A program made the translations under genes and the position numbers. From a bacterium (lineage in GTDB: Bacteria; SZUA-182; DTGQ01): a DNA stretch of 64,000 bases. A model generated the notes under the pieces. The model ran no database searches and was not told the origin of the DNA. It saw nothing but the letters and a program-made list of their open reading frames with translations. Positions 6,497 to 64,000 of the stretch are shown piece after piece. Where the stretch lies: positions 6,104 through 70,103 of the forward strand of contig JBFLZW010000054.1 in assembly GCA_040755755.1 (NCBI GenBank), read 5' to 3'. How positions within the stretch are numbered: the first letter of the stretch is position 1; every line of letters starts with the position of its first letter.

Positions 6497-9400
6497 TTAC
6501 CTGAAGTGCCGCATTAAGGTATTAATGAAGCAGCCTCCGTTATCGCTGTCATTATCGACATTGATTAACGCAATCTCTTTTTCAGCAAGCCCGCTGTAGT
6601 TTACATCTTGCGATGTTACTGCTAAGGTAATCTTATAAGCTATGTTGCCATCATCCCGGTCATCATTGACACCGGTTACGGTAACGGTCTTGGGAGTGTT
6701 CCAGTCAACTCCAGAAAAGTCAATGCTGTCAGGCGATACGGTGCCTTCTGTGGTATCGGAGCTGGTAATTCTTACCGTTACCGTAGTCGTTGGCTGTGTG
6801 CTCAAGGAAACGGTAAAAGTTGCCTTCCCCTTATCCTCGGTCGTGTTCCCGCTTATTGCACTCACCAATAAACCATAATCATTATCATTGTTGATTACCG
6901 TTACATCGGCAGGATTGATGCCGTTGTAGGCTGTATCATTGGACTGTGCTGCCGCGGTGATTATCGTATAAGTAATGGGGCCATCAATAATACCATCATC
7001 GACTCCGGTTATGGTCACTGCTTGTGGAATATTCCAGTTATCAGGAGTAAAGGTAAGGGTAGCAGCAGATATGATCCCTTCTGTGGTATCGGAACTGGTC
7101 AGCGCAATAGTAACATCCTCAGTCGGCTGAGTATTGAGAACAACGTTAAATGTAGCCTCGGCCCCTGCCTCTGAGGTTGTTGGTCCGCTGGTGGGGCTGA
7201 CTGTTATGCCCGGCGTGTCATTGTCAGTGTTGGTGATTGATACCGTAGACGTGACAGTATCGTAGCCCCCTCCTGATGCTGTTGCGGTAACCGTATAGGT
7301 TATTGCACCATCAATAATGCTATCATCGGCTCCAGTTACAGTTACGGTCTGGGCCTGATCCCAGTTGGCAGGAGTGAAGGTAAGGCTGGTAGCCGATAAT
7401 GACCCCTCTGTCGCATCGACACCGGTGAAAGCCACTGTAACATCAGCCGTCGGTTCGGCAGCCAATTGCACTGTAAAGGTAGCCGTGTTCCCTGCACCCG
7501 CTGCCTCTGTTGTGGTTACATTGGTGGGATTGATCGTTATGGCTGGGGTTTCATTGTCGTTATTGGTCACTGATACTGTGGCCGTAAGCCCCTCGTAGTC
7601 TCCTCCGGCCGCTGTTGCCGTAATCGTGTAAGCTACAGCACCATCAGTAACACTATCATCGGCTCCAGTTACAGTTACGGTCTGAGCCTGATCCCAGTTG
7701 GCAGGAGTGAAGGTAAGGCTGGTAGCCGATAATGATCCCTCGGTTGCATCGACACCGCTGAAATTCACGGTAACCTCAGCCGTTGGCACGGTAGTTAAGC
7801 GCACGGTGAAAGTATCCGTGTTATCCTCGCCCGCTGCTTCACTTGTAGTAACACTGGTGGGATTGACCGTTATGGCTGGCGTGTCATCATCGGTGTTGGT
7901 GACTGATACTGTGGCCGTAAGCCCCGTGTAGTCGCCGCCGGATGCTGTCGCCGTAATCGTGTAAGATGCATTGCCGTCATCGTCATTATCATCCACTCCA
8001 GTTATGATTACCTCCTGCGTCTGGCTCCAGTTGGCAGGAGTAAAGGTAAGGCTGGCAGTCGATAATGACCCTTCAGTCGCGTCGAGTCCGGTGAGAGCTA
8101 CCGTAACATCAGCCGTTGGCTCACTTGCTAAACGCATGGTGAAGGTAGCCGTGTGATTTGCGCCAGTTGCCTCCGTAGTTGACACCCCGGTGGGATCGAC
8201 CGTTATCCCTTTCGTATCATCATCGGTATTGGTGACAGATACTGTAGCCGTAAGACCCTGATAGTCGCCACCGGCTGCTGTCGCTGTAATCGTGTAAGTT
8301 TGATCATCATCATCAACAGATTCATCGACTCCGGTAATAGTTACATCCTGAGTCTGGCTCCAGGTGGCAGGAGTGAAGGTAAGGCTGGCGGTCGATAACG
8401 ACCCTTCAGTCGCATCGAGTCCGGTGAGAGCTACCGTGACTTCATCCGTAGGCTGGGTGGCCAGACGCACGGTAAAGGTAGCCGTGTGATTTCCCCCTGC
8501 TGCTTCTGTTGTGGTCACACCGGTAGAACTGACTATTAAGGCTGGTACTTCATTATCAGTATTGGTTATTGACAACGTGGCCGTAACACCATTGTAGACT
8601 CCTGCGGCTGCCGCTGTTGCCGTGACCGGGTAAGTTATATCACCATCATCATCAGTATCATCTAATCCGGTTACGGTTATGGTCTGAGGAGTGCTCCAGT
8701 CGGCAGGAGTGAAGGTAAGGCTGGCATCAGATAATGACCCCTCTGTCGTGTCGACCCCGCTAAAAGTAACGGTAATATCCTCTGCTGGCTCGGTAGATAA
8801 CCGTACGGTGAAAGTGGCCGCGCCTCCTGCTTCCGTTGTGGTCACACTGGGTGGATTTATCGTTATACCGGGTGTTTCATCATCGGTATTGGCTACTGAC
8901 ACAGCCGTAGTAACACCATTGTAGCCACCTCCGGATGCCTGTGCCGTGATCGTGTAAGGTTGACTGCCATCAGCAATATCATCATTCAATCCGGTTATGG
9001 TTACAGTCTGAGTCTGGTTCCAGTTACCGGTGGTAAAGGTAAGGCTGGCAGATGATAATGATCCCTCTGTTGCATCAACATTAACGAACGTAACAGTGAC
9101 ATTGTCCGTTGGCGCAGTAGCCAAGCGTACCGTGAAATCAGCCGTGCCTCCTGCCTCTGTTGTGGTCACACTAGTTGGATTTACTATTAAACCTGCATCG
9201 TCATTCGTATTGGTTACTGACATCGTGGCAATTATGCCATCATAGCCTCCACCGGCTGCCGTAGCAGTAATTGTGTAGGTTATATCACCATCAGCAACGT
9301 CATCATTAACTCCGGTTACGGTTATCTCCTGGTTCTGGTCCCAATTATCCGTAGTAAAGGTAAGACTGGCAGTCGATAATGAACCTTCTGTTGCATCGAC

Positions 9401-9595
9401 ACCGCTGAGAGTTACCGTAACATCAGCCGTGGGCGCGGTCTCTAAGTGTACCAAGAAAGTACCTGTCCCCCCTGCCTCTGTTGTAGTCACACTTGCAGGA
9501 TTAATTATTATACTCTGGGCTATTGCATAGCTTTGAAAACCTAAAAACAGAGCAAAAAACAATACAACTCCAATTATTGACTTTAGCGACTTCAT
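6497..9595 (-). CDS. secreted protein of nine Calx-beta-like repeats with truncated CFI-box-like C-terminus
   Basis: A 1032-aa exported protein. A signal peptide (about 27 residues, ending AIAQ) is followed by nine tandem units of about 105-112 residues. Each contains T-T-E-A-x-G, a DATEGSLS-type strand, LTFTPxNW, TVTGxDD and an acidic NTDxD end. The acidic loops resemble the calcium-binding ends of Calx-beta and cadherin-like domains. The last residues (DNGGCFINTLMRHFR) contain a GGCFI word like the start of the CFI-box C-terminal signature, but the usual continuation is missing. AGGAGG precedes the ATG at 9595 and a terminator follows the gene. Probably a cell-surface or adhesive filament-like protein; the exact family is unproven. 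Confidence 0.75.
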   Translation of the reverse strand: MKSLKSIIGVVLFFALFLGFQSYAIAQSIIINPASVTTTEAGGTGTFLVHLETAPTADVTVTLSGVDATEGSLSTASLTFTTDNWDQNQEITVTGVNDDVADGDITYTITATAAGGGYDGIIATMSVTNTNDDAGLIVNPTSVTTTEAGGTADFTVRLATAPTDNVTVTFVNVDATEGSLSSASLTFTTGNWNQTQTVTITGLNDDIADGSQPYTITAQASGGGYNGVTTAVSVANTDDETPGITINPPSVTTTEAGGAATFTVRLSTEPAEDITVTFSGVDTTEGSLSDASLTFTPADWSTPQTITVTGLDDTDDDGDITYPVTATAAAAGVYNGVTATLSITNTDNEVPALIVSSTGVTTTEAAGGNHTATFTVRLATQPTDEVTVALTGLDATEGSLSTASLTFTPATWSQTQDVTITGVDESVDDDDQTYTITATAAGGDYQGLTATVSVTNTDDDTKGITVDPTGVSTTEATGANHTATFTMRLASEPTADVTVALTGLDATEGSLSTASLTFTPANWSQTQEVIITGVDDNDDDGNASYTITATASGGDYTGLTATVSVTNTDDDTPAITVNPTSVTTSEAAGEDNTDTFTVRLTTVPTAEVTVNFSGVDATEGSLSATSLTFTPANWDQAQTVTVTGADDSVTDGAVAYTITATAAGGDYEGLTATVSVTNNDNETPAITINPTNVTTTEAAGAGNTATFTVQLAAEPTADVTVAFTGVDATEGSLSATSLTFTPANWDQAQTVTVTGADDSIIDGAITYTVTATASGGGYDTVTSTVSITNTDNDTPGITVSPTSGPTTSEAGAEATFNVVLNTQPTEDVTIALTSSDTTEGIISAATLTFTPDNWNIPQAVTITGVDDGIIDGPITYTIITAAAQSNDTAYNGINPADVTVINNDNDYGLLVSAISGNTTEDKGKATFTVSLSTQPTTTVTVRITSSDTTEGTVSPDSIDFSGVDWNTPKTVTVTGVNDDRDDGNIAYKITLAVTSQDVNYSGLAEKEIALINVDNDSDNGGCFINTLMRHFR
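6559..9511. repeat. tandem coding repeat, nine units of about 320-335 bp
   Basis: DNA reflection of the nine domain repeats. Units 6 and 7 (roughly 7240-7890) are the most similar, sharing long stretches such as the block encoding the LTFTPANWDQAQTVTVTGAD region, which suggests recent unit duplication or conversion. The plus-strand ORFs here are shadows of the repeat. Confidence 0.8.
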
Positions 9596-26229: not shown

Positions 26230-26826
26230 TTAATGCGCTAACTTGTTATTAACCTTGTTCATCAAGCCAAGCAAAAGACCCAGGGCAATAAACGCTCCCG
26301 GCGGCAGAATCGCCACCAGAAAGGGAATGTAGCGGGGACCAAACACCGATACTCCAAACAGCGATCCGTTGCCCAAAAGTTCCCTGATACTTCCGACAAC
26401 CAGGAGAGCCAGAGTGTACCCGATTCCCATGCCGATTCCATCCATCAGGGAATTCAGAATCGGATTTTTCGAGGCAAAAGCCTCAGCCCTTCCCAGAATG
26501 ATGCAGTTGACCACGATCAGGGGGATGAAAATCCCCATGGCCTTGTGAAGCTCGAAAAAGAATCCGGCCATAACCAGGTCAACGATGGTCACAAAGGTGG
26601 CCACAATCACGATAAAAGCGGCCAGCCTGACTTTATCCGGAATCACCTTGCGCAGACCTGAGATGAGGACATTCGAGCAGACCAGAACAAAGGTCACGGC
26701 CACACCCATGCCGATCGCGTTTTGCGCCTGAGTGGTGATGGCCAGGGTCGAGCACATGCCCAGAACTATCCGAAAGATCGGATTTTCTTTCCATATTCCA
26801 TTAATAAGATCATGAATCAGGTTCAA
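26230..26826 (-). CDS. rnfE: Rnf complex membrane subunit RnfE
   Basis: 198 aa with six membrane helices. Conserved [46 protein letters not shown] and the C-terminal [16 protein letters not shown]. The start is taken as TTG at 26826 ([15 protein letters not shown]), because AAGGAG lies 6 bases upstream and the family begins here. The ATG at 26910 would overlap rnfG by 47 bases and add a non-family extension. Confidence 0.93.
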
Positions 26827-32975: not shown

Positions 32976-34715
32976 ATGGAGTGTTATGATAAGAAAAGAT
33001 GTTTTTCCCGTATCTTTTTTTATGCAGGTTTGATCATCCCGGTTTGGGTCGTGGTCATCACCTGTTCATTTTCGTCCGCCTTGTCCGCCCCGCTGAGCGC
33101 CAAGACAGCGGACAGGACTCTGGCTACGGTTGGCAAGAGAAAAATTACCGTTGGCGATTTTATCGATTTTTATAAAACCCGGCCCCGGATTGCACGATGG
33201 AACTCTGCGAACAGCAATCAGAATGATCCCAAAGAGGCCCTGGACGCTCTGATCGGCAAGGTCCTGATGGCTGAAGAGGCACGACGGTTATACCCCGATA
33301 CCCTGAAAAACAGCCAAAAAGAGCTGGCCGATTTTGAGCAGACCCTTCTGATCAATATGCTGACTGAAGAGCAGATCGACAAGGGCATCAGGATCGATGA
33401 GCGGGAAGTCGAGCGGCGGATCCCGGAGAATCAGAAGGTCGAGGTGCGCCTTCGCAGGATTGTGACCGCCACGCGGCAAGAGGCTCTTAGCCTGCGCAGG
33501 AAATTGGAGAACGGAGCCGACTTCAGCAGCCTGGCCAAAAAGCATTCCCTGGCCGAGGATGCCCATAAGGGGGGAGATATCGGTTATATGTCCTTCGATC
33601 AGGGCATTTTCCCCAAAAAAGTGGTAGAGGAAATCTTTCACCTGAAAAAGGGAGAAATCAGCGGTCCGGCTGCCATCCGGGAGGGATTCGCTCTGTTTCA
33701 GGTAACCGGACGAAGAAAGACCTCAGCCGAGGCCCTCGATCGGATTAAACAGTACATCCGCCAGCAGGTCAGGCTGGAGCGCAAACGGGAGCGGTGGGAC
33801 CAGCTCCTGCGGCAATTGTCCGAAGAGTCCCGGCTGGTGATCAACGAAGCTTTGTGGAAAGAAATTGAGCAGGCCATTGTTTCAGGCACCCAGGGTGCCC
33901 CCGGCCAGGGTGCGGCCTCAGTCCTGGCCAGGATGGGCGGCCTGGAAATAGCCAGGGTGGGGGACCGATCCATCCTGCTGGCGGAAATTATTCCCGATCG
34001 CGCGGACCCTTCGTTCGGAGGAGGAAGACCCTGGGAAAAAGACCCGGCCATGCTGAGAAGGCTCCTTGATCGAAAGACCAAGACCATTCTGGTAGCTGAC
34101 TATGCCCGGCAACTGCACTATGACCAGTCTCCGGAGGTAAAAAAAAATATGGCCCGGTTTAAAGATGACCTGATGACAAGGCGACTGGTTGCCGAAGGAA
34201 TATATAAAGCTCTTACGGTGAGCAGTGAAGAGTGTCAAAAGTATTATCAGGATCATCTGACCGAATACCAGGTTCCGGAAAGAGTCAGAATAAGCCAGAT
34301 CATCGTTCCGGATGAGAAAACCGCTGCCGATATTATCCACCAGCTTAATACGGGAGCTCAGTTTACTGAACTGTCAAAGAAATATCCGCCACCAGATTCA
34401 TTGACACCAGAGGGCTTTTGGGCGAGAGGGGGAAGCGCTATGGGAAAGGAATTCGAGGACCGGGTCTTTAGTTTGCGGGCAGGCGAGGTGAGTAAACCCA
34501 TCAAGACAACCAGAGGATTTCACGTGGTAAAGCTCCTTGATCGGCAAGGCAAGGGCTTTGCCAGGCTGGACGAGGTGAAATCCGGAATCAGGGACAGGCT
34601 GTTATCAGCCAAAAAAGAAAAAGCCTTACATGACCATATAACTGTTCTGCGGCGAAAAAGCCGGGTGGTGGTGAATGAATCTCTTTTTCAGGAAGTGGTT
34701 AAAAATGCGCTCTAA
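32976..34715 (+). CDS. exported double-parvulin peptidyl-prolyl isomerase
   Basis: 579 aa. A signal peptide of about 42 residues precedes a SurA_N-like helical region and two parvulin-type domains (about 155-246 and 434-528). Core motifs are GGDIGYMSFDQGIFP with EGFALFQVTGR, and EGFWARGGSAMGKEF with TRGFHVVKLLDRQGKG. AAAGGAGG precedes the ATG. Its last 11 bases overlap the start of the 27-heme cytochrome, so translation is probably coupled. By analogy with SurA/PrsA it may help fold secreted cytochromes; the pairing is inferred from position. Confidence 0.85.
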   Translation: MECYDKKRCFSRIFFYAGLIIPVWVVVITCSFSSALSAPLSAKTADRTLATVGKRKITVGDFIDFYKTRPRIARWNSANSNQNDPKEALDALIGKVLMAEEARRLYPDTLKNSQKELADFEQTLLINMLTEEQIDKGIRIDEREVERRIPENQKVEVRLRRIVTATRQEALSLRRKLENGADFSSLAKKHSLAEDAHKGGDIGYMSFDQGIFPKKVVEEIFHLKKGEISGPAAIREGFALFQVTGRRKTSAEALDRIKQYIRQQVRLERKRERWDQLLRQLSEESRLVINEALWKEIEQAIVSGTQGAPGQGAASVLARMGGLEIARVGDRSILLAEIIPDRADPSFGGGRPWEKDPAMLRRLLDRKTKTILVADYARQLHYDQSPEVKKNMARFKDDLMTRRLVAEGIYKALTVSSEECQKYYQDHLTEYQVPERVRISQIIVPDEKTAADIIHQLNTGAQFTELSKKYPPPDSLTPEGFWARGGSAMGKEFEDRVFSLRAGEVSKPIKTTRGFHVVKLLDRQGKGFARLDEVKSGIRDRLLSAKKEKALHDHITVLRRKSRVVVNESLFQEVVKNAL

Positions 34716-37700
34716 AGAAAGCGGTCAGCGGTCAGTGGTCAGTGAAGAGAAGTCAGGAGTCAGGAGCCATGATCCAGGAGAGAGAGTGGTCAGCGGTCAG
34801 TGGTCAGTGGTCAGTAAGATACTGAAAACTGATAACTTGAAACTGATAACTTCCCTTGTGCTGGCAGCCCTTACCTGCATATGCTCCCAGGCTCTGGCCG
34901 TGGATGGAGGAGTCGGACACGATATGGGCGCTCATAATCAAAAAGCAGCCGGAATCAGAGGGCCGGTGTGTGCCTCCTGTCATTTCACCAAAGCCGGTAA
35001 GAAGGAAAACGTAAAGATATGGGCTGACCTGCCCCAAGGGGCTCAAACCCTGCCGGGGGCAAAGGGCGTCCAGACCATATGCAGCAGTTGCCATTATCCG
35101 GGCAATGCGGTCAATGCCCGGTCCGGCTTCACCCTGGGCAATCATGAACCGGAAGGCCATGATTTTATCTACGGAAATGTCCTGATGGATACTTCACTCC
35201 TGGGGGTTGGTGAAAGCCACGTCATGGCCGAACGGGTGGAGACTGACCCGAACCGGGGGAAATTGCCTGCTGCCCTGGATGAAAATTTTTTCCCTCTCAC
35301 GACAGCCAGCGGCAAGGACAGCGGCTTTACCTGCACGACCTGCCATGATCCTCATATCCAGCCAAACCAGGATATCACCGGCAATGGAGACTATCTGCGA
35401 ACAAAAGAGGAAAAAACGGTCGGACAATCGGGGCAAAGAACCCCTCTCTGCCTTCAGTGCCACGAGGACAGCTCAAAGGGCCGCCAGCATGGAGGATCGT
35501 CAAGCTGCAACCAGTGCCATCACCCCCATGACGGATACTATCAGCTCAGCCGTGAGGCGCAGCTTGGCCGGTCTATTTTAACCCGGAAGGTGAGTCCGGT
35601 AAATTTCCAGGCCCTGCCGAATGTGGCTGCCTTTGGCCCTTCGGACGGACATGAATCTTCGCCGGATGTCTCCAGCCTCTGCTATAGCTGTCACGGGCCG
35701 GATGCCCCGCAGGAGATGCGGGAAGCCGGGGCTACACCCATTTTTGGCGATGGCAGCAAGACCAAAAAGGCGCACCACCCTATGGGCAGCCAGGCCCAGC
35801 TCGGAAAGGCTCTCCGGGCTCCGGGGCTTCGCAGGGCGGTCCTGAACAGCTCCGGTCAGGTAACCTGCACTTCGTGCCACAACGGGTTTCACCGGGGAAA
35901 GAATCTGCATTTTCTCAGGACAGATTTCACCGCTGACTCCGCTTCCCTGTGTACATTCTGCCATTCCGACAAGACGGCAAAAGATCTTGGAGTGGCGGGA
36001 GCGGCTCACCGCCAGGTCTGTGGCAAAAGCCCGAACCAGCGGGGAGAGTGCATGTTCTGCCACTTCATTCATGACGGTCCCGACCGGGGAGAGCACAACA
36101 GACCTGCAACCAGGGCGCTTCTGCGGATCGAGCCGGTCAACCTGGCATGGTCGGATCAGGCCAATGATACTGACACCGAAGACTTTGAAGACCTGTGTTT
36201 CGGCTGTCACAGCTCCAGTCTCTACATGAAGGGCACCGAAAAAGAGGGAGCCCGGTTGCAGCCCCAAAAGTATTTCAGCCACCGGTTTTCTTCCGTCCCC
36301 TCGGATAAGGTTCACCCGACCCTGCCGGTTTCGGACGGGGACCTTTCCGGCAAAGTCCCGGATGATTACGGAGCAGGGCAGGGGAAGATTTACTGCGGCA
36401 GTTGCCACGATGTCCACAAGAGCGCCAATGCTCCGTATCTGCGGGGCAAAGATTCTCCGTACCGGGGAAGCGGCTTTTGCGCCCGCTGCCATACCGACCT
36501 TCCAGGGAACGGGCAATCCAGCCACCCGGTTGCCGTCTGTCCGCGGCCGGGCGTTACTGACGAGAAATTCCCCCGGTTTGCGTATGGGGGAAAGAGCGGC
36601 CTTCCGCAGGGGATTACTTCTGACGAGAGCCCTGAAGGGCAGATACTCTGTCTGACCTGCCACAGCATGCATGCGGCCAAAACCAGTTTTAACGGCCGGA
36701 TCGATAGAGCCATGGCCGCTGGATCCCACGGGAAGCTGCTGGTGGCGGATAATTTTTCATCAGATGAAGGAAGCGATCTCTGCCGGTCCTGCCACACTTC
36801 CTACCAGGGAATAATTCACTCACGGCATGATTTTTCCGGCCTGAATCTGGGCTCTCCGCAATCAGGCGGCGGTGTCTGCTCCGCCTGTCATATACCCCAC
36901 GGATCGCGGGAGAAGAGCCTGCTGTGGGCGCGAAGCCTGGCCGAGGAGCGCAAAATCTTCAGGCAGGATAAAAGGCCGGATTACCAGAGAGGGGTAACGC
37001 TTTTCTGTTATGACTGCCATGATGATCATTCCGTGGCGGATGATGATCCGCCAATCAATTCCTTCCTCTATCCTCCTCAGGATATTGCCTTCAGCGACGG
37101 TCCCGGGAAAACCTCGAAGGTAGGTTTTTATGAAACCATCCCGCCGGGAAGCGTCGGGGAATACGGTCTGAAGGATCTTCCGATCACCGATTTCGAGGCA
37201 GTGGAAACAGGGGGGCATTATATCAAGACAGCCGGACTTACCGAGATTACCAATGGGATCAGCAGCGGAGACAAGCTTTCCTGCAATATCTGCCACGATC
37301 CGCACAACAGGGGCAGCGGTAATGAGGTCTTTCTCCGGAATCCCCTGGGAACCAGCTCCACAGGCCAGCTTCGGGCCAGCAGGAATACCCGGAACGGAAC
37401 TGGAACAGGCCGGGACATCTGTGTCTCCTGCCATGGCTATTCGGAATACAACCTGCCGATGAATACCCCGGTCCGTCTTTTCGGAATCGAAATCGTGAAA
37501 ACCCCCTCTCAGGATAAACTCAAACTGGCCGAGCACACATCGGATGAACATCAGGTGCCCTGCACCAAGTGCCATCTCCATAACCGTATGGCTGTCCCCC
37601 AATCTCCCCGCACCGGGCCAGGCACCCATGAATTTCACTTCAGGAGCCTTCTGACCACCGGGGAAGATACTATAATGCTCCATCAGGAAGCTCTGGGAAC

Positions 37701-39021
37701 CAGCCCTTCAGACAATAAGTGCGATATCTGTCACCCTGCGGAGCTTTCTTTCCGGGCTGGAAATCTGATCTTCAACGATGGCCAGATTCTGGCCGATACC
37801 ACGGTCTGTGATGTCTGCCACAGCCGGTGGGGACAATTCGACGGAGTGAATGACCCTGACAGTGCCAAGGCTTCCTGGAAAGAGGGCGTCTATGAAAACG
37901 ATGAATTGAAGAAAGGAAAGGATAATTGGTGTCTCGGATGCCACGATGACCAGCCCTCCCGCATTCAGAATCCTGACCTGCCGGAACAGCTCTGGATTCA
38001 GGCACCAAATATTGCCGGTACGGACAACGAAAGCGGATATCTCATCAGCGGGCATGGGTTACCCAAAGGGAAAAATTATCGATCCACCCAGCGGGGAGTA
38101 GCAGGCCGGGGAGGGGCAGGGCTGTTATGCACTGCGTGCCATTCACCGGAGGCCAGGCATATCGTTAACAGCCAGCGGGAGAAGAAGAAGAATTTCAAAA
38201 ACTGGCAGGCCAATAAATTCCGGCTGAAACAGGAGCTTGAGCTGCCCCGCAGATCCGAAGAATATCGCGGCTCCGATTTTACGCTGTGCTTCAGTTGTCA
38301 TAAGGAAAGCAAAATCGTTCATTCGGAGCCCACCATCATCGGGCTCCCGCCAGGGTATTGGGATTATACCGACAATCATAATCCGTATGTAAATCTGGAA
38401 GTTAAGAATAAGAATAGCGACAGCGGATACACCATGACCGGGTTCAGAAATGCGGACGAGCATGGCATCTACCCCTTGAGAAAAATGGGACAGGGCATAA
38501 CTATCGATTTCAGCAGGGTCTTCCCCCTGCGCAGGTATAATCTCCACTGGAATCATCTCTCCCTGCCGGATGCGGCTATTGATCCGAACGCGATCATTAC
38601 TGCACGACCTCAAAGCCAGAGCAGCACCAGCAGTAATAACCGCAGGACCCAGACCTGCTATTCGAGCCGATGTCATGCCGGGACCAGTGTGGTCAAGGAG
38701 CGTCCTGCCGCCTTCTGGGATTCGGACAAGGATGGAATACTGGATTCACGGCCCTCCTGTACGGCCTGCCATAATCCGCACGGGACCCATTATATCTCCA
38801 TGACCAGAGATGACCTCGCCATTGAGCATGATATCGATGACGCAGGTGAAGAATTTGGATTCATCGGCAGCAAGGAATATGGGGCTTATGCGGACAGCAT
38901 GGATAACTACAACGACTTATATTGCTGGGAATGCCATGCCAAGCTGCAGCGGTTCCGCGGTAATTATGTCTACTATCCATGCTCCTCGAAAGACCTCGTG
39001 GCGCCAGAGTCACCGAAGTAA
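34705..39021 (+). CDS. giant multiheme cytochrome c, 27 heme motifs
   Basis: 1438 aa. I count 26 CxxCH plus one CX4CH (CYSSRCH, 38656-38676), spread over the whole length from CASCH to CWECH, with no other recognised domain. The hydrophobic signal segment (LKLITSLVLAALTCICSQALA) lies unusually far in (from about residue 45), because the first 45 codons are made of GGTCAGTGG-type repeats. ATG 34705 was chosen for AGGAAGTGG upstream and the overlap with the isomerase gene; the real start may be further in, e.g. a GTG near 34808. No C-terminal membrane anchor. Probably secreted or outer-surface electron carrier. Paralogous to the next cytochrome. Confidence 0.88.
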   Translation: MRSKESGQRSVVSEEKSGVRSHDPGERVVSGQWSVVSKILKTDNLKLITSLVLAALTCICSQALAVDGGVGHDMGAHNQKAAGIRGPVCASCHFTKAGKKENVKIWADLPQGAQTLPGAKGVQTICSSCHYPGNAVNARSGFTLGNHEPEGHDFIYGNVLMDTSLLGVGESHVMAERVETDPNRGKLPAALDENFFPLTTASGKDSGFTCTTCHDPHIQPNQDITGNGDYLRTKEEKTVGQSGQRTPLCLQCHEDSSKGRQHGGSSSCNQCHHPHDGYYQLSREAQLGRSILTRKVSPVNFQALPNVAAFGPSDGHESSPDVSSLCYSCHGPDAPQEMREAGATPIFGDGSKTKKAHHPMGSQAQLGKALRAPGLRRAVLNSSGQVTCTSCHNGFHRGKNLHFLRTDFTADSASLCTFCHSDKTAKDLGVAGAAHRQVCGKSPNQRGECMFCHFIHDGPDRGEHNRPATRALLRIEPVNLAWSDQANDTDTEDFEDLCFGCHSSSLYMKGTEKEGARLQPQKYFSHRFSSVPSDKVHPTLPVSDGDLSGKVPDDYGAGQGKIYCGSCHDVHKSANAPYLRGKDSPYRGSGFCARCHTDLPGNGQSSHPVAVCPRPGVTDEKFPRFAYGGKSGLPQGITSDESPEGQILCLTCHSMHAAKTSFNGRIDRAMAAGSHGKLLVADNFSSDEGSDLCRSCHTSYQGIIHSRHDFSGLNLGSPQSGGGVCSACHIPHGSREKSLLWARSLAEERKIFRQDKRPDYQRGVTLFCYDCHDDHSVADDDPPINSFLYPPQDIAFSDGPGKTSKVGFYETIPPGSVGEYGLKDLPITDFEAVETGGHYIKTAGLTEITNGISSGDKLSCNICHDPHNRGSGNEVFLRNPLGTSSTGQLRASRNTRNGTGTGRDICVSCHGYSEYNLPMNTPVRLFGIEIVKTPSQDKLKLAEHTSDEHQVPCTKCHLHNRMAVPQSPRTGPGTHEFHFRSLLTTGEDTIMLHQEALGTSPSDNKCDICHPAELSFRAGNLIFNDGQILADTTVCDVCHSRWGQFDGVNDPDSAKASWKEGVYENDELKKGKDNWCLGCHDDQPSRIQNPDLPEQLWIQAPNIAGTDNESGYLISGHGLPKGKNYRSTQRGVAGRGGAGLLCTACHSPEARHIVNSQREKKKNFKNWQANKFRLKQELELPRRSEEYRGSDFTLCFSCHKESKIVHSEPTIIGLPPGYWDYTDNHNPYVNLEVKNKNSDSGYTMTGFRNADEHGIYPLRKMGQGITIDFSRVFPLRRYNLHWNHLSLPDAAIDPNAIITARPQSQSSTSSNNRRTQTCYSSRCHAGTSVVKERPAAFWDSDKDGILDSRPSCTACHNPHGTHYISMTRDDLAIEHDIDDAGEEFGFIGSKEYGAYADSMDNYNDLYCWECHAKLQRFRGNYVYYPCSSKDLVAPESPK
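34721..34851. repeat. GGTCAGTGG-type repeat cluster within a coding 5' end
   Basis: Tandem and near-tandem words: GGTCAGCGGTCAGTGGTCAGTG at 34722-34744, AGTCAGGAGTCAGGAG at about 34751-34766, a second GTGGTCAGCGGTCAGTGGTCAGTGG at 34787-34811, and ACTGATAACTT twice at about 34826-34851. In frame they encode QRSVVSEE and SGQWSVVSK. The same words recur at 39025, 55237, 58389 and 61598. Confidence 0.85.
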
Positions 39022-39024
39022 GGG

Positions 39025-39059
39025 AGTGGTCAGTGGTCACTGATCACTGACCACTTTTT
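39025..39059 (+). terminator. repeat-derived terminator after the 27-heme gene
   Basis: AGTGGTCAGTG (39025-39035) pairs perfectly with CACTGACCACT (39045-39055) and is followed by TTTTT. It begins three bases after the stop codon and is composed of the GGTCAGTGG-type repeat. It would separate the 27-heme gene from the 22-heme gene unless read through. Confidence 0.7.
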
Positions 39060-48372: not shown

Positions 48373-48897
48373 ATGAAAAAGATTATTATTAATACATTGG
48401 TTCCATTGCTGATTATTTCCTGTTATATCTCTCCAGTTTCTGCTGTGGAGGTTGCTCCCCGTATTTCGGACAGGGAGATTGTGGAGAGGCTTTCCAGGCT
48501 TGAGGAGGGGCAGAAGGATCTGCGCTCAGAAATGATCGCTCGATTCGAATCGGTGGATAAACAGTTCGAATCGGTGGATAGACAGTTCGAATCGGTGGAT
48601 AAGCGATTCGAATCGGTGGATAAGCGATTCGATGCAATGGATAAGCGATTCGATGCAATGGATAAGCGAATCGATGACCTGCGTGCAGAGATGAATAGTA
48701 AATTTGACCTCATCATCTGGATGATGGGGCTTTTTATTACTATTGCCCTCGCCATGTCAGGGTTTGTGATCAGGATGCAATGGCAGATGCAGAAGAACCA
48801 GGCAAGTATGAAAACTTCTCTGGAAACCCAAAAAGATGAGATAGCCTTCCTGAAGAGCCTGATCGAAAAGCTTCTTCCTCCGAAAGGAGCCTTGTAA
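48373..48897 (+). CDS. coiled-coil protein with heptad repeats and one membrane helix
   Basis: 174 aa. An N-terminal hydrophobic segment (VPLLIISCYISPVSA) may be a signal peptide. Residues about 30-108 form a coiled coil with exact seven-residue repeats (FESVDKQ, FESVDKR, FDAMDKR). A membrane helix (LIIWMMGLFITIALAMSGFVI) and a short lysine-rich C-terminal helix follow. I recognise only the architecture, which is common among uncharacterised bacterial proteins. The ribosome-binding site is weak. Confidence 0.7.
   Translation: MKKIIINTLVPLLIISCYISPVSAVEVAPRISDREIVERLSRLEEGQKDLRSEMIARFESVDKQFESVDRQFESVDKRFESVDKRFDAMDKRFDAMDKRIDDLRAEMNSKFDLIIWMMGLFITIALAMSGFVIRMQWQMQKNQASMKTSLETQKDEIAFLKSLIEKLLPPKGAL
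48541..48666. repeat. six tandem 21 bp repeats in the coiled-coil gene
   Basis: Units of the form CGATTCGAATCGGTGGATAA (21 bp with the next base) change to CGATTCGATGCAATGGATAA in the last two copies. Each encodes one heptad, so copy-number change would keep frame and coiled-coil register. Confidence 0.9.
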
Positions 48898-63742: not shown

Positions 63743-64000
63743 ATGAATCGTTCTGCAAGTTTTACTGCCAAATGTAAGTTGTTAATAATTTCTGCCCTTT
63801 TCATTTTCGTTTCTACAATAGCACCCCACAAAAACGCTCAAGCATATTACAGTTATGGAATACCCGGCTTTGGCTTGTATGGCGGCCTCTACGGCCTGTA
63901 TGGCCTGTATGGCGGCCTCTACGGCGGGCTCTACGGCCTGTATGGCGGTTTGTATGGTGGACTCTATGGCGGGTACGGCCTGTATGGCGGCCTCTACGGC
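63743..64000 (+). CDS. secreted GLYG-repeat protein, 3' end beyond the window
   Basis: At least 86 codons, open to the window end. AAAGAGGAGA precedes ATG 63743. A signal peptide (CKLLIISALFIFVSTIAP, cleavage probably near AQA) leads to YYSYGIPGFG and then a run of GLYG and GLYGG units (about 13). The composition is almost only Gly, Leu and Tyr. Such low-complexity tyrosine/glycine sequences occur in secreted structural, self-assembling or surface proteins. No known domain. A competing ATG at 63736 ends after 13 codons. Confidence 0.7.
   Translation, partial: MNRSASFTAKCKLLIISALFIFVSTIAPHKNAQAYYSYGIPGFGLYGGLYGLYGLYGGLYGGLYGLYGGLYGGLYGGYGLYGGLYG
63872..64000. repeat. tandem GGCCTSTAYGGC coding repeat
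   Basis: Short repeats of 9-15 bp (GGCCTGTATGGC, GGCCTCTACGGC, with extra GGC or GGG) encode GLYG units. The synonymous TAT/TAC and CTG/CTC alternation shows that selection may act on the peptide. Continues past the window. Confidence 0.85.

Follow-up and report, generated by a model that had tools for sequence, protein, structure and literature searches.

Heptamer repeats in the signal-peptide leader of a 27-haem cytochrome gene and their dispersed relatives

How does an export signal come to stand behind a polar lead of about 45 residues? The question is raised by a cytochrome gene in the window, by which we mean the whole 64,000-nucleotide stretch analysed here (contig JBFLZW010000054.1), which belongs to a 5.3 Mb draft genome of 88 contigs that is rich in multihaem cytochromes. 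A sequence-only reading of this DNA had described dispersed repeats between the start codon, ATG 34705, and the signal-peptide helix, and had offered two options: either the repeat invaded the gene start, or the true start lies downstream, at a GTG near 34808, and the overlap with the preceding isomerase gene is fortuitous. The description is borne out, in that the repeats are as described and far above chance, and the count of 27 haems holds. The features concerned are the following (all on the forward strand; repeat stretches and signal-peptide parts were read from the sequence).

32976–34715, +: gene for a PpiC/parvulin-type peptidyl-prolyl isomerase (Pfam Rotamase matches); its stop codon shares bases with the start of the cytochrome gene
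34690–34695, +: Shine-Dalgarno sequence AGGAAG for ATG 34705, identical in the same-genus genome G001
34705–39021, +: 27-haem cytochrome gene (26 CXXCH and one CX4CH); its ancestral start, ATG 34705, is kept in orthologues
34723–34743, +: type a heptamer array, GGTCAGC GGTCAGT GGTCAGT
34750–34768, +: type b heptamer stretch, AAGTCAGGAGTCAGGAGCC
34775–34788, +: AGGAGAGAGAG with GTG 34786, a candidate repeat-born internal start, in frame and with a Shine-Dalgarno sequence (duplex −7.4 kcal/mol)
34788–34815, +: second type a array, GGTCAGC (GGTCAGT)x3, containing the in-frame GTG 34807
34816–34852, +: type c tail, AAGATACTGAAAACTGATAACTTGAAACTGATAACTT, translated KILKTDNLKLIT
34843–34899, +: signal-peptide hydrophobic core and c-region, with the same QALA/VDGG in G001
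39021–39058, +: terminator-like hairpin by RNA folding, formed by the heptamer array of the cytochrome gene in two opposed copies, then TTTTT

The leader of the cytochrome gene

Read from ATG 34705, the product has 1438 residues and opens with the leader MRSKESGQRSVVSEEKSGVRSHDPGERVVSGQWSVVSKILKTDNLKLITSLVLAALTCICSQALA, which is followed by VDGG. Behind the start codon come (GGTCAGY)3, AGTCAGGAGTCAGGAG, (GGTCAGY)4 and words of the AACTGAT/AACTTGA kind, so ordered that repeat words with a period of 7 bases occupy 34723–34852, about 130 bases that separate start codon and hydrophobic core. In sense orientation, GGTCAGT arrays are stop-free in all frames and encode GQWSVVS, whereas antisense arrays carry a TGA every 21 bases. 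The segment LITSLVLAALTCICSQALA before VDGG was judged by eye to be a hydrophobic core with an A-X-A type cleavage site; it is conserved in G001, and cleavage would be expected after ...SQALA.

At its other end, directly 3' of the stop codon, the gene meets a second heptamer structure. The segment 39021–39058 folds with −27.8 kcal/mol (z −5.2) and looks like a repeat recruited to end transcription ahead of a further multihaem cytochrome gene downstream; a simple terminator scan did not list this segment despite its strong hairpin.

Orthologues were compared in G001 (contig JAILZY010000015.1; the cytochromes are 74–77% identical) and in the same-family genome G002. The isomerase and cytochrome genes are adjacent in G001 and G002 as well. 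In G001, the cytochrome gene shows the same overlap of ATG and isomerase stop and the same Shine-Dalgarno sequence (TTCAGGAAGTGGTTAAAAATG), whose duplex energy of −9.4 kcal/mol, here and in G001, lies at about the best 5% of random positions. The frame that opens at the overlap ATG of G001 reads MYSRLSVQRSKERGCAKRSLPLLLAGSFLAAWVALGSQALA and then VDGG, and offers no second start that could serve ahead of the core; in G002 the overlap ATG opens MCCKRNISLIIGLLIILGTGSPAWG and is the sole possible start. Because both relatives have the same ATG and no other workable start, ATG 34705 is the ancestral start. Conservation of this ATG is partly forced by the C-terminal ...N-(V/A)-L end of the isomerase, and the lack of alternative starts in G001 and G002 is the stronger argument. 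A fortuitous overlap with a downstream start is thus rejected for the ancestral gene. The proposed GTG does exist in frame, at 34807, with GTG 34786 and its AGGAG being better placed than it.

The signal peptides of G001 and G002 are free of repeats, and since the overlap start is ancestral, the repeat has expanded the n-region in frame, which is the invasion option of the sequence-only reading. An identical N-terminal peptide encoded by DNA free of the repeat was looked for in the orthologues and not found. The leader measures 65 residues here, as against 41 in G001 and about 25 in G002, and the extra length here is repeat, some 24–40 residues ahead of the export signal, the divergence between window and relatives being too high to fix exact insertion borders. 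The n-region of G001 is itself longer than that of G002, and some of the extra length may thus be older than the repeat.

A dispersed heptamer population

The words of the leader recur far beyond this gene. In the window, GGTCAGTGGTCAG was found 14 times with up to two mismatches, as against 1.2 expected, a number reached by no shuffle. Genome-wide, GGTCAGTGGTCAGTGGTCAG gave 252 matches at the same tolerance and its reversed pattern none. Perfect triple tandem arrays, counted in a 1.23 Mb sample, numbered 53 at period 7, without exception heptamers of the CAGT/TCAG type; the remaining periods between 5 and 13 gave 0 to 5 each. Two contig stretches, together 555 kb and chosen regardless of matches along their length, hold 52 clusters, or about 490 when scaled to the genome. 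The heptamer pattern, with up to one mismatch, is absent from G001, G002 and a second same-family genome, G003, and a survey of 386 genomes found any match in ten, this one included, the nine others having at most 8 each against 108 here. The repeat population is genome-wide and lineage-specific. A plasmid search with the repeat-encoded peptide gave no match, and a string search of a literature collection for the repeat or its peptides found no paper, which is not proof of its being undescribed.

Most copies lie between genes. Outside the window, genes were called with a simple home-made codon-based caller; 115 of 144 sampled cluster midpoints fell in intergenic DNA, though coding DNA makes up 85% of the sequence (binomial p ~5e-67), as did 47 of the 52 clusters of the 555 kb sample.

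Other repeats were seen as well. A second dispersed family, of period 8, forms arrays of ACGCAGAG and ACACAGAG in the sampled stretches (for example, at 26452–27537 of contig C9 of this genome), and in a DnaC-like ATPase on C9 the peptide TTETQRHRE, encoded by period-8 words, adjoins an antisense heptamer array. The window itself contains tandem repeats of about 333 bp at 6627–9511 (eight or nine units, 60–84% alike), probably a gene for a repeated-domain protein; a 21-bp tandem repeat at 48520–48666 (TTCGAATCGGTGGATAAGC), which makes a 7-residue repeat, perhaps a coiled coil; and, at the window end (63872–64000), short tandem repeats rich in Gly-Tyr/Leu (GGCCTGTATGGC).

In-frame copies and the origin of the leader

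Some clusters, however, are in frame with conserved genes, either within them or at their ends, and these in-frame copies of the cytochrome-leader repeats had been missed by the one-gene view of the sequence-only reading. For most of these genes, relatives or solved homologues are shorter. Seven clusters were found in a polyketide/PUFA-type synthase locus (C36), where a 25-residue insert in the KR region, RSQNSEVRIQNKSGLSPDSCLLTPDSC, is cleanly absent from G001 and G002. In PyrK (C18), about 37 residues stand between two blocks that are contiguous in the PyrK subunits of known structure, 5KSW and 1EP1. A UvrD-type helicase (C30) has repeat in the loop before EEERRLFYVALTRA, which is longer than in PcrA and G002 and is also long in G001. 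The double UvrA on C1 carries the repeat in frame in its linker, which varies in relatives too; the G002 linker has its own, different short repeats (YQTGTYQTGAYQ and AATGATAAGGC words), which suggests that this linker accepts inserts in several lineages. Two further ORFs, one KdsB-like (C22:2869) and one for a PIG-L deacetylase (C1:45877), were discounted by eye as 5' repeat carriers, their real starts probably lying downstream of the repeat.

The lipoprotein LptE (C1:182801–183403) is an independent parallel to the cytochrome leader. Its signal n-region, MEKIRSQKPGARSQESGVRSKK, is repeat and stands before the lipobox; the gene has a good Shine-Dalgarno sequence and no alternative start before the h-region and lipobox core, and LptE has short n-regions in G002 and G003.

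Within genes, type a copies are 14 sense and 2 antisense, and type b copies 13 sense and 5 antisense. This sense excess is what stop codons and the detection of ORFs would produce, and does not in itself argue for a function.

We consider it probable, and hold this with good confidence, that a heptamer-repeat composite, belonging to a copied population spread over the genome, entered or grew, in frame, between ATG 34705, the ancestral start, and the Sec core. Entry of the composite at this position would yield an unusually long, polar n-region of about 45 residues, which the ribosome would read through, the repeat being stop-free in the frame used on the forward strand. It is chiefly the hydrophobic core that directs a protein to Sec. 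Because the n-region is cleaved off and targeting is mainly by that core, signal n-regions should be permissive: export would survive on the h- and c-regions, and the leader repeat would be lost with the signal peptide, leaving the mature cytochrome unchanged. In the genome at large, the elements would spread and be tolerated where harmless, often between genes, and within genes where an open frame coincides with a permissive position, such as an n-region, linker or loop. That the leader is translated and exported, how the elements move and which start is used now are points that we infer from the DNA.

Three other explanations compete with in-frame insertion of a copied composite. Translation might now begin at a repeat-born GTG, either 34786 or 34807, in which case the signal peptide would have a normal length of 31–38 residues, the upstream ATG would be a relic and the upstream repeat a leader or spacer. 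GTG 34786 is in frame, AGGAGAG lies about 6 nt upstream of it (−7.4 kcal/mol), and MVSGQWSVVSKILKTDNLKLITSLVLA... resembles an ordinary signal peptide; were GTG 34786 the start, the long n-region may never be made. We nevertheless think replacement of the start unlikely, though it is the most plausible of the three: ATG 34705 has the stronger Shine-Dalgarno sequence, identical in G001, and is the ancestral start; the repeat 5' of GTG 34786 is open in the cytochrome frame, though it has stops in the other two; and LptE has no such escape start. The two GTGs may still serve as additional starts.

It is more doubtful still that no copied element was inserted and that a seed present by chance was multiplied on the spot into heptamer words by slippage of the polymerase. 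The variable unit number of the period-7 arrays is typical of slippage, and type a arrays have only about 3 conserved bases at each border (AGT before, RAA after), the sequence being random beyond; because of these narrow borders, slippage may indeed set the type a unit number. However, the cytochrome insert mixes families a and b, which recur together elsewhere, and all period-7 arrays of the sampled genome form one family group. Type b is harder to explain by slippage. Its copies are palindromic, at about 60–110 bp, whereas type a arrays alone are not, and in 19 of them, set in unrelated flanks, the inverted heptamer arms enclose a common, somewhat variable, non-repetitive core, AGAATAAAGGCTNTCTTTTCTTC; three near-identical copies occur at separate sites of the one synthase locus. 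Since a unique core is common to copies with unrelated flanks, and near-identical copies occur in one locus, type b requires copying and not only slippage. As for the mobiliser, a RAYT/Y1 transposase was considered and is not supported: there are six Y1_Tnp loci, one near type b arrays and none near type a. Least probable by far is that the repeat is a translational or transcriptional regulatory element selected at the cytochrome start, a role of the sort suggested in Beggiatoaceae for TAACTGA heptamers that precede start codons. Most copies are intergenic and one forms the terminator-like hairpin at 39021–39058, but the leader copy is part of the coding frame, copies occur in unrelated enzymes and, in every orientation, between genes, and the relatives lack this lineage-specific family in their cytochrome gene.

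Comparison with known dispersed repeats

Most of what is documented on dispersed repeats invading conserved genes in frame concerns the Rickettsia palindromic elements (RPEs). These lie in frame inside conserved genes (Ogata et al. 2000, as described in PMC10969869 and PMC3767692). Going by those accounts, there is a likeness: here too, short copied repeats, palindromic in one subfamily, are scattered through the genome, stand in frame inside unrelated conserved genes, at apparently permissive loops and linkers, and are missing from orthologues. Insertion of this type was seen in PyrK, UvrD, the UvrA linker, the synthase KR region and the n-regions of LptE and the cytochrome. The likeness is one of behaviour. 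RPEs are palindromes of 100–150 bp with a conserved sequence; the type b elements are palindromic, measure about 60–110 bp and have a conserved core. As far as those accounts go, the present elements also differ in their 7-bp units of variable number, in being mostly intergenic, and in a 5.3 Mb host as opposed to small Rickettsia genomes.

On balance, we favour the view that heptamer-based, partly palindromic elements, unrelated to those of Rickettsia, colonise coding and intergenic DNA outside the Rickettsiales and supply in-frame peptides (VVSGQWSVVS, RSQESGVRSQ and SPDSCLLTPDSC) at n-regions, linkers and loops. If true, this would be an independent second case, built of 7-bp units, and would make the origin of protein segments from repeats more general. 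It would also offer a clean test of which protein positions (signal n-regions, linkers, loops) accept foreign peptide. For annotators, it follows that an odd, polar lead in front of a signal peptide is not always a mis-called start but can be real and derived from a repeat.

Cyanobacterial STRR heptamers also form short tandem arrays of 7-bp units scattered between genes, as the units here do; they are not known for settling in frame within conserved genes. REP/RAYT elements and MITEs are likewise short, non-coding, dispersed and partly palindromic. Unlike in REP/RAYT systems, the repeat does not generally flank a Y1 transposase gene, one of the six Y1_Tnp loci having type b arrays nearby. MITEs have terminal inverted repeats, a target-site duplication and a cognate transposase; type b has inverted heptamer arms, and no linked transposase or target-site duplication was identified for the heptamer elements.

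In texture, the match is with the direct repeats of the heptamer TAACTGA in Beggiatoaceae, Cyanobacteria and Bacteroidetes, whose insertions are mostly at protein ends (MacGregor 2015, PMC4679880). Both have period-7 arrays, mostly intergenic, a patchy taxonomic distribution, and one orientation with stops and the other translatable; the AACTGAT of the cytochrome tail is a circular permutation of TAACTGA. Perfect triple arrays of TAACTGA itself were absent from the 1.23 Mb sample, the units there being CAGGAGT, CAGTGGT and similar. The main units here are GGTCAGT/GGCCAGT and GGAGTCA/GAATTCA, they build palindromic composites with a unique core, and their insertions fall within conserved domains, the ends of proteins not being the main site. 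We claim membership in neither group; the heptamer elements match RPEs in how they behave and TAACTGA repeats in texture.
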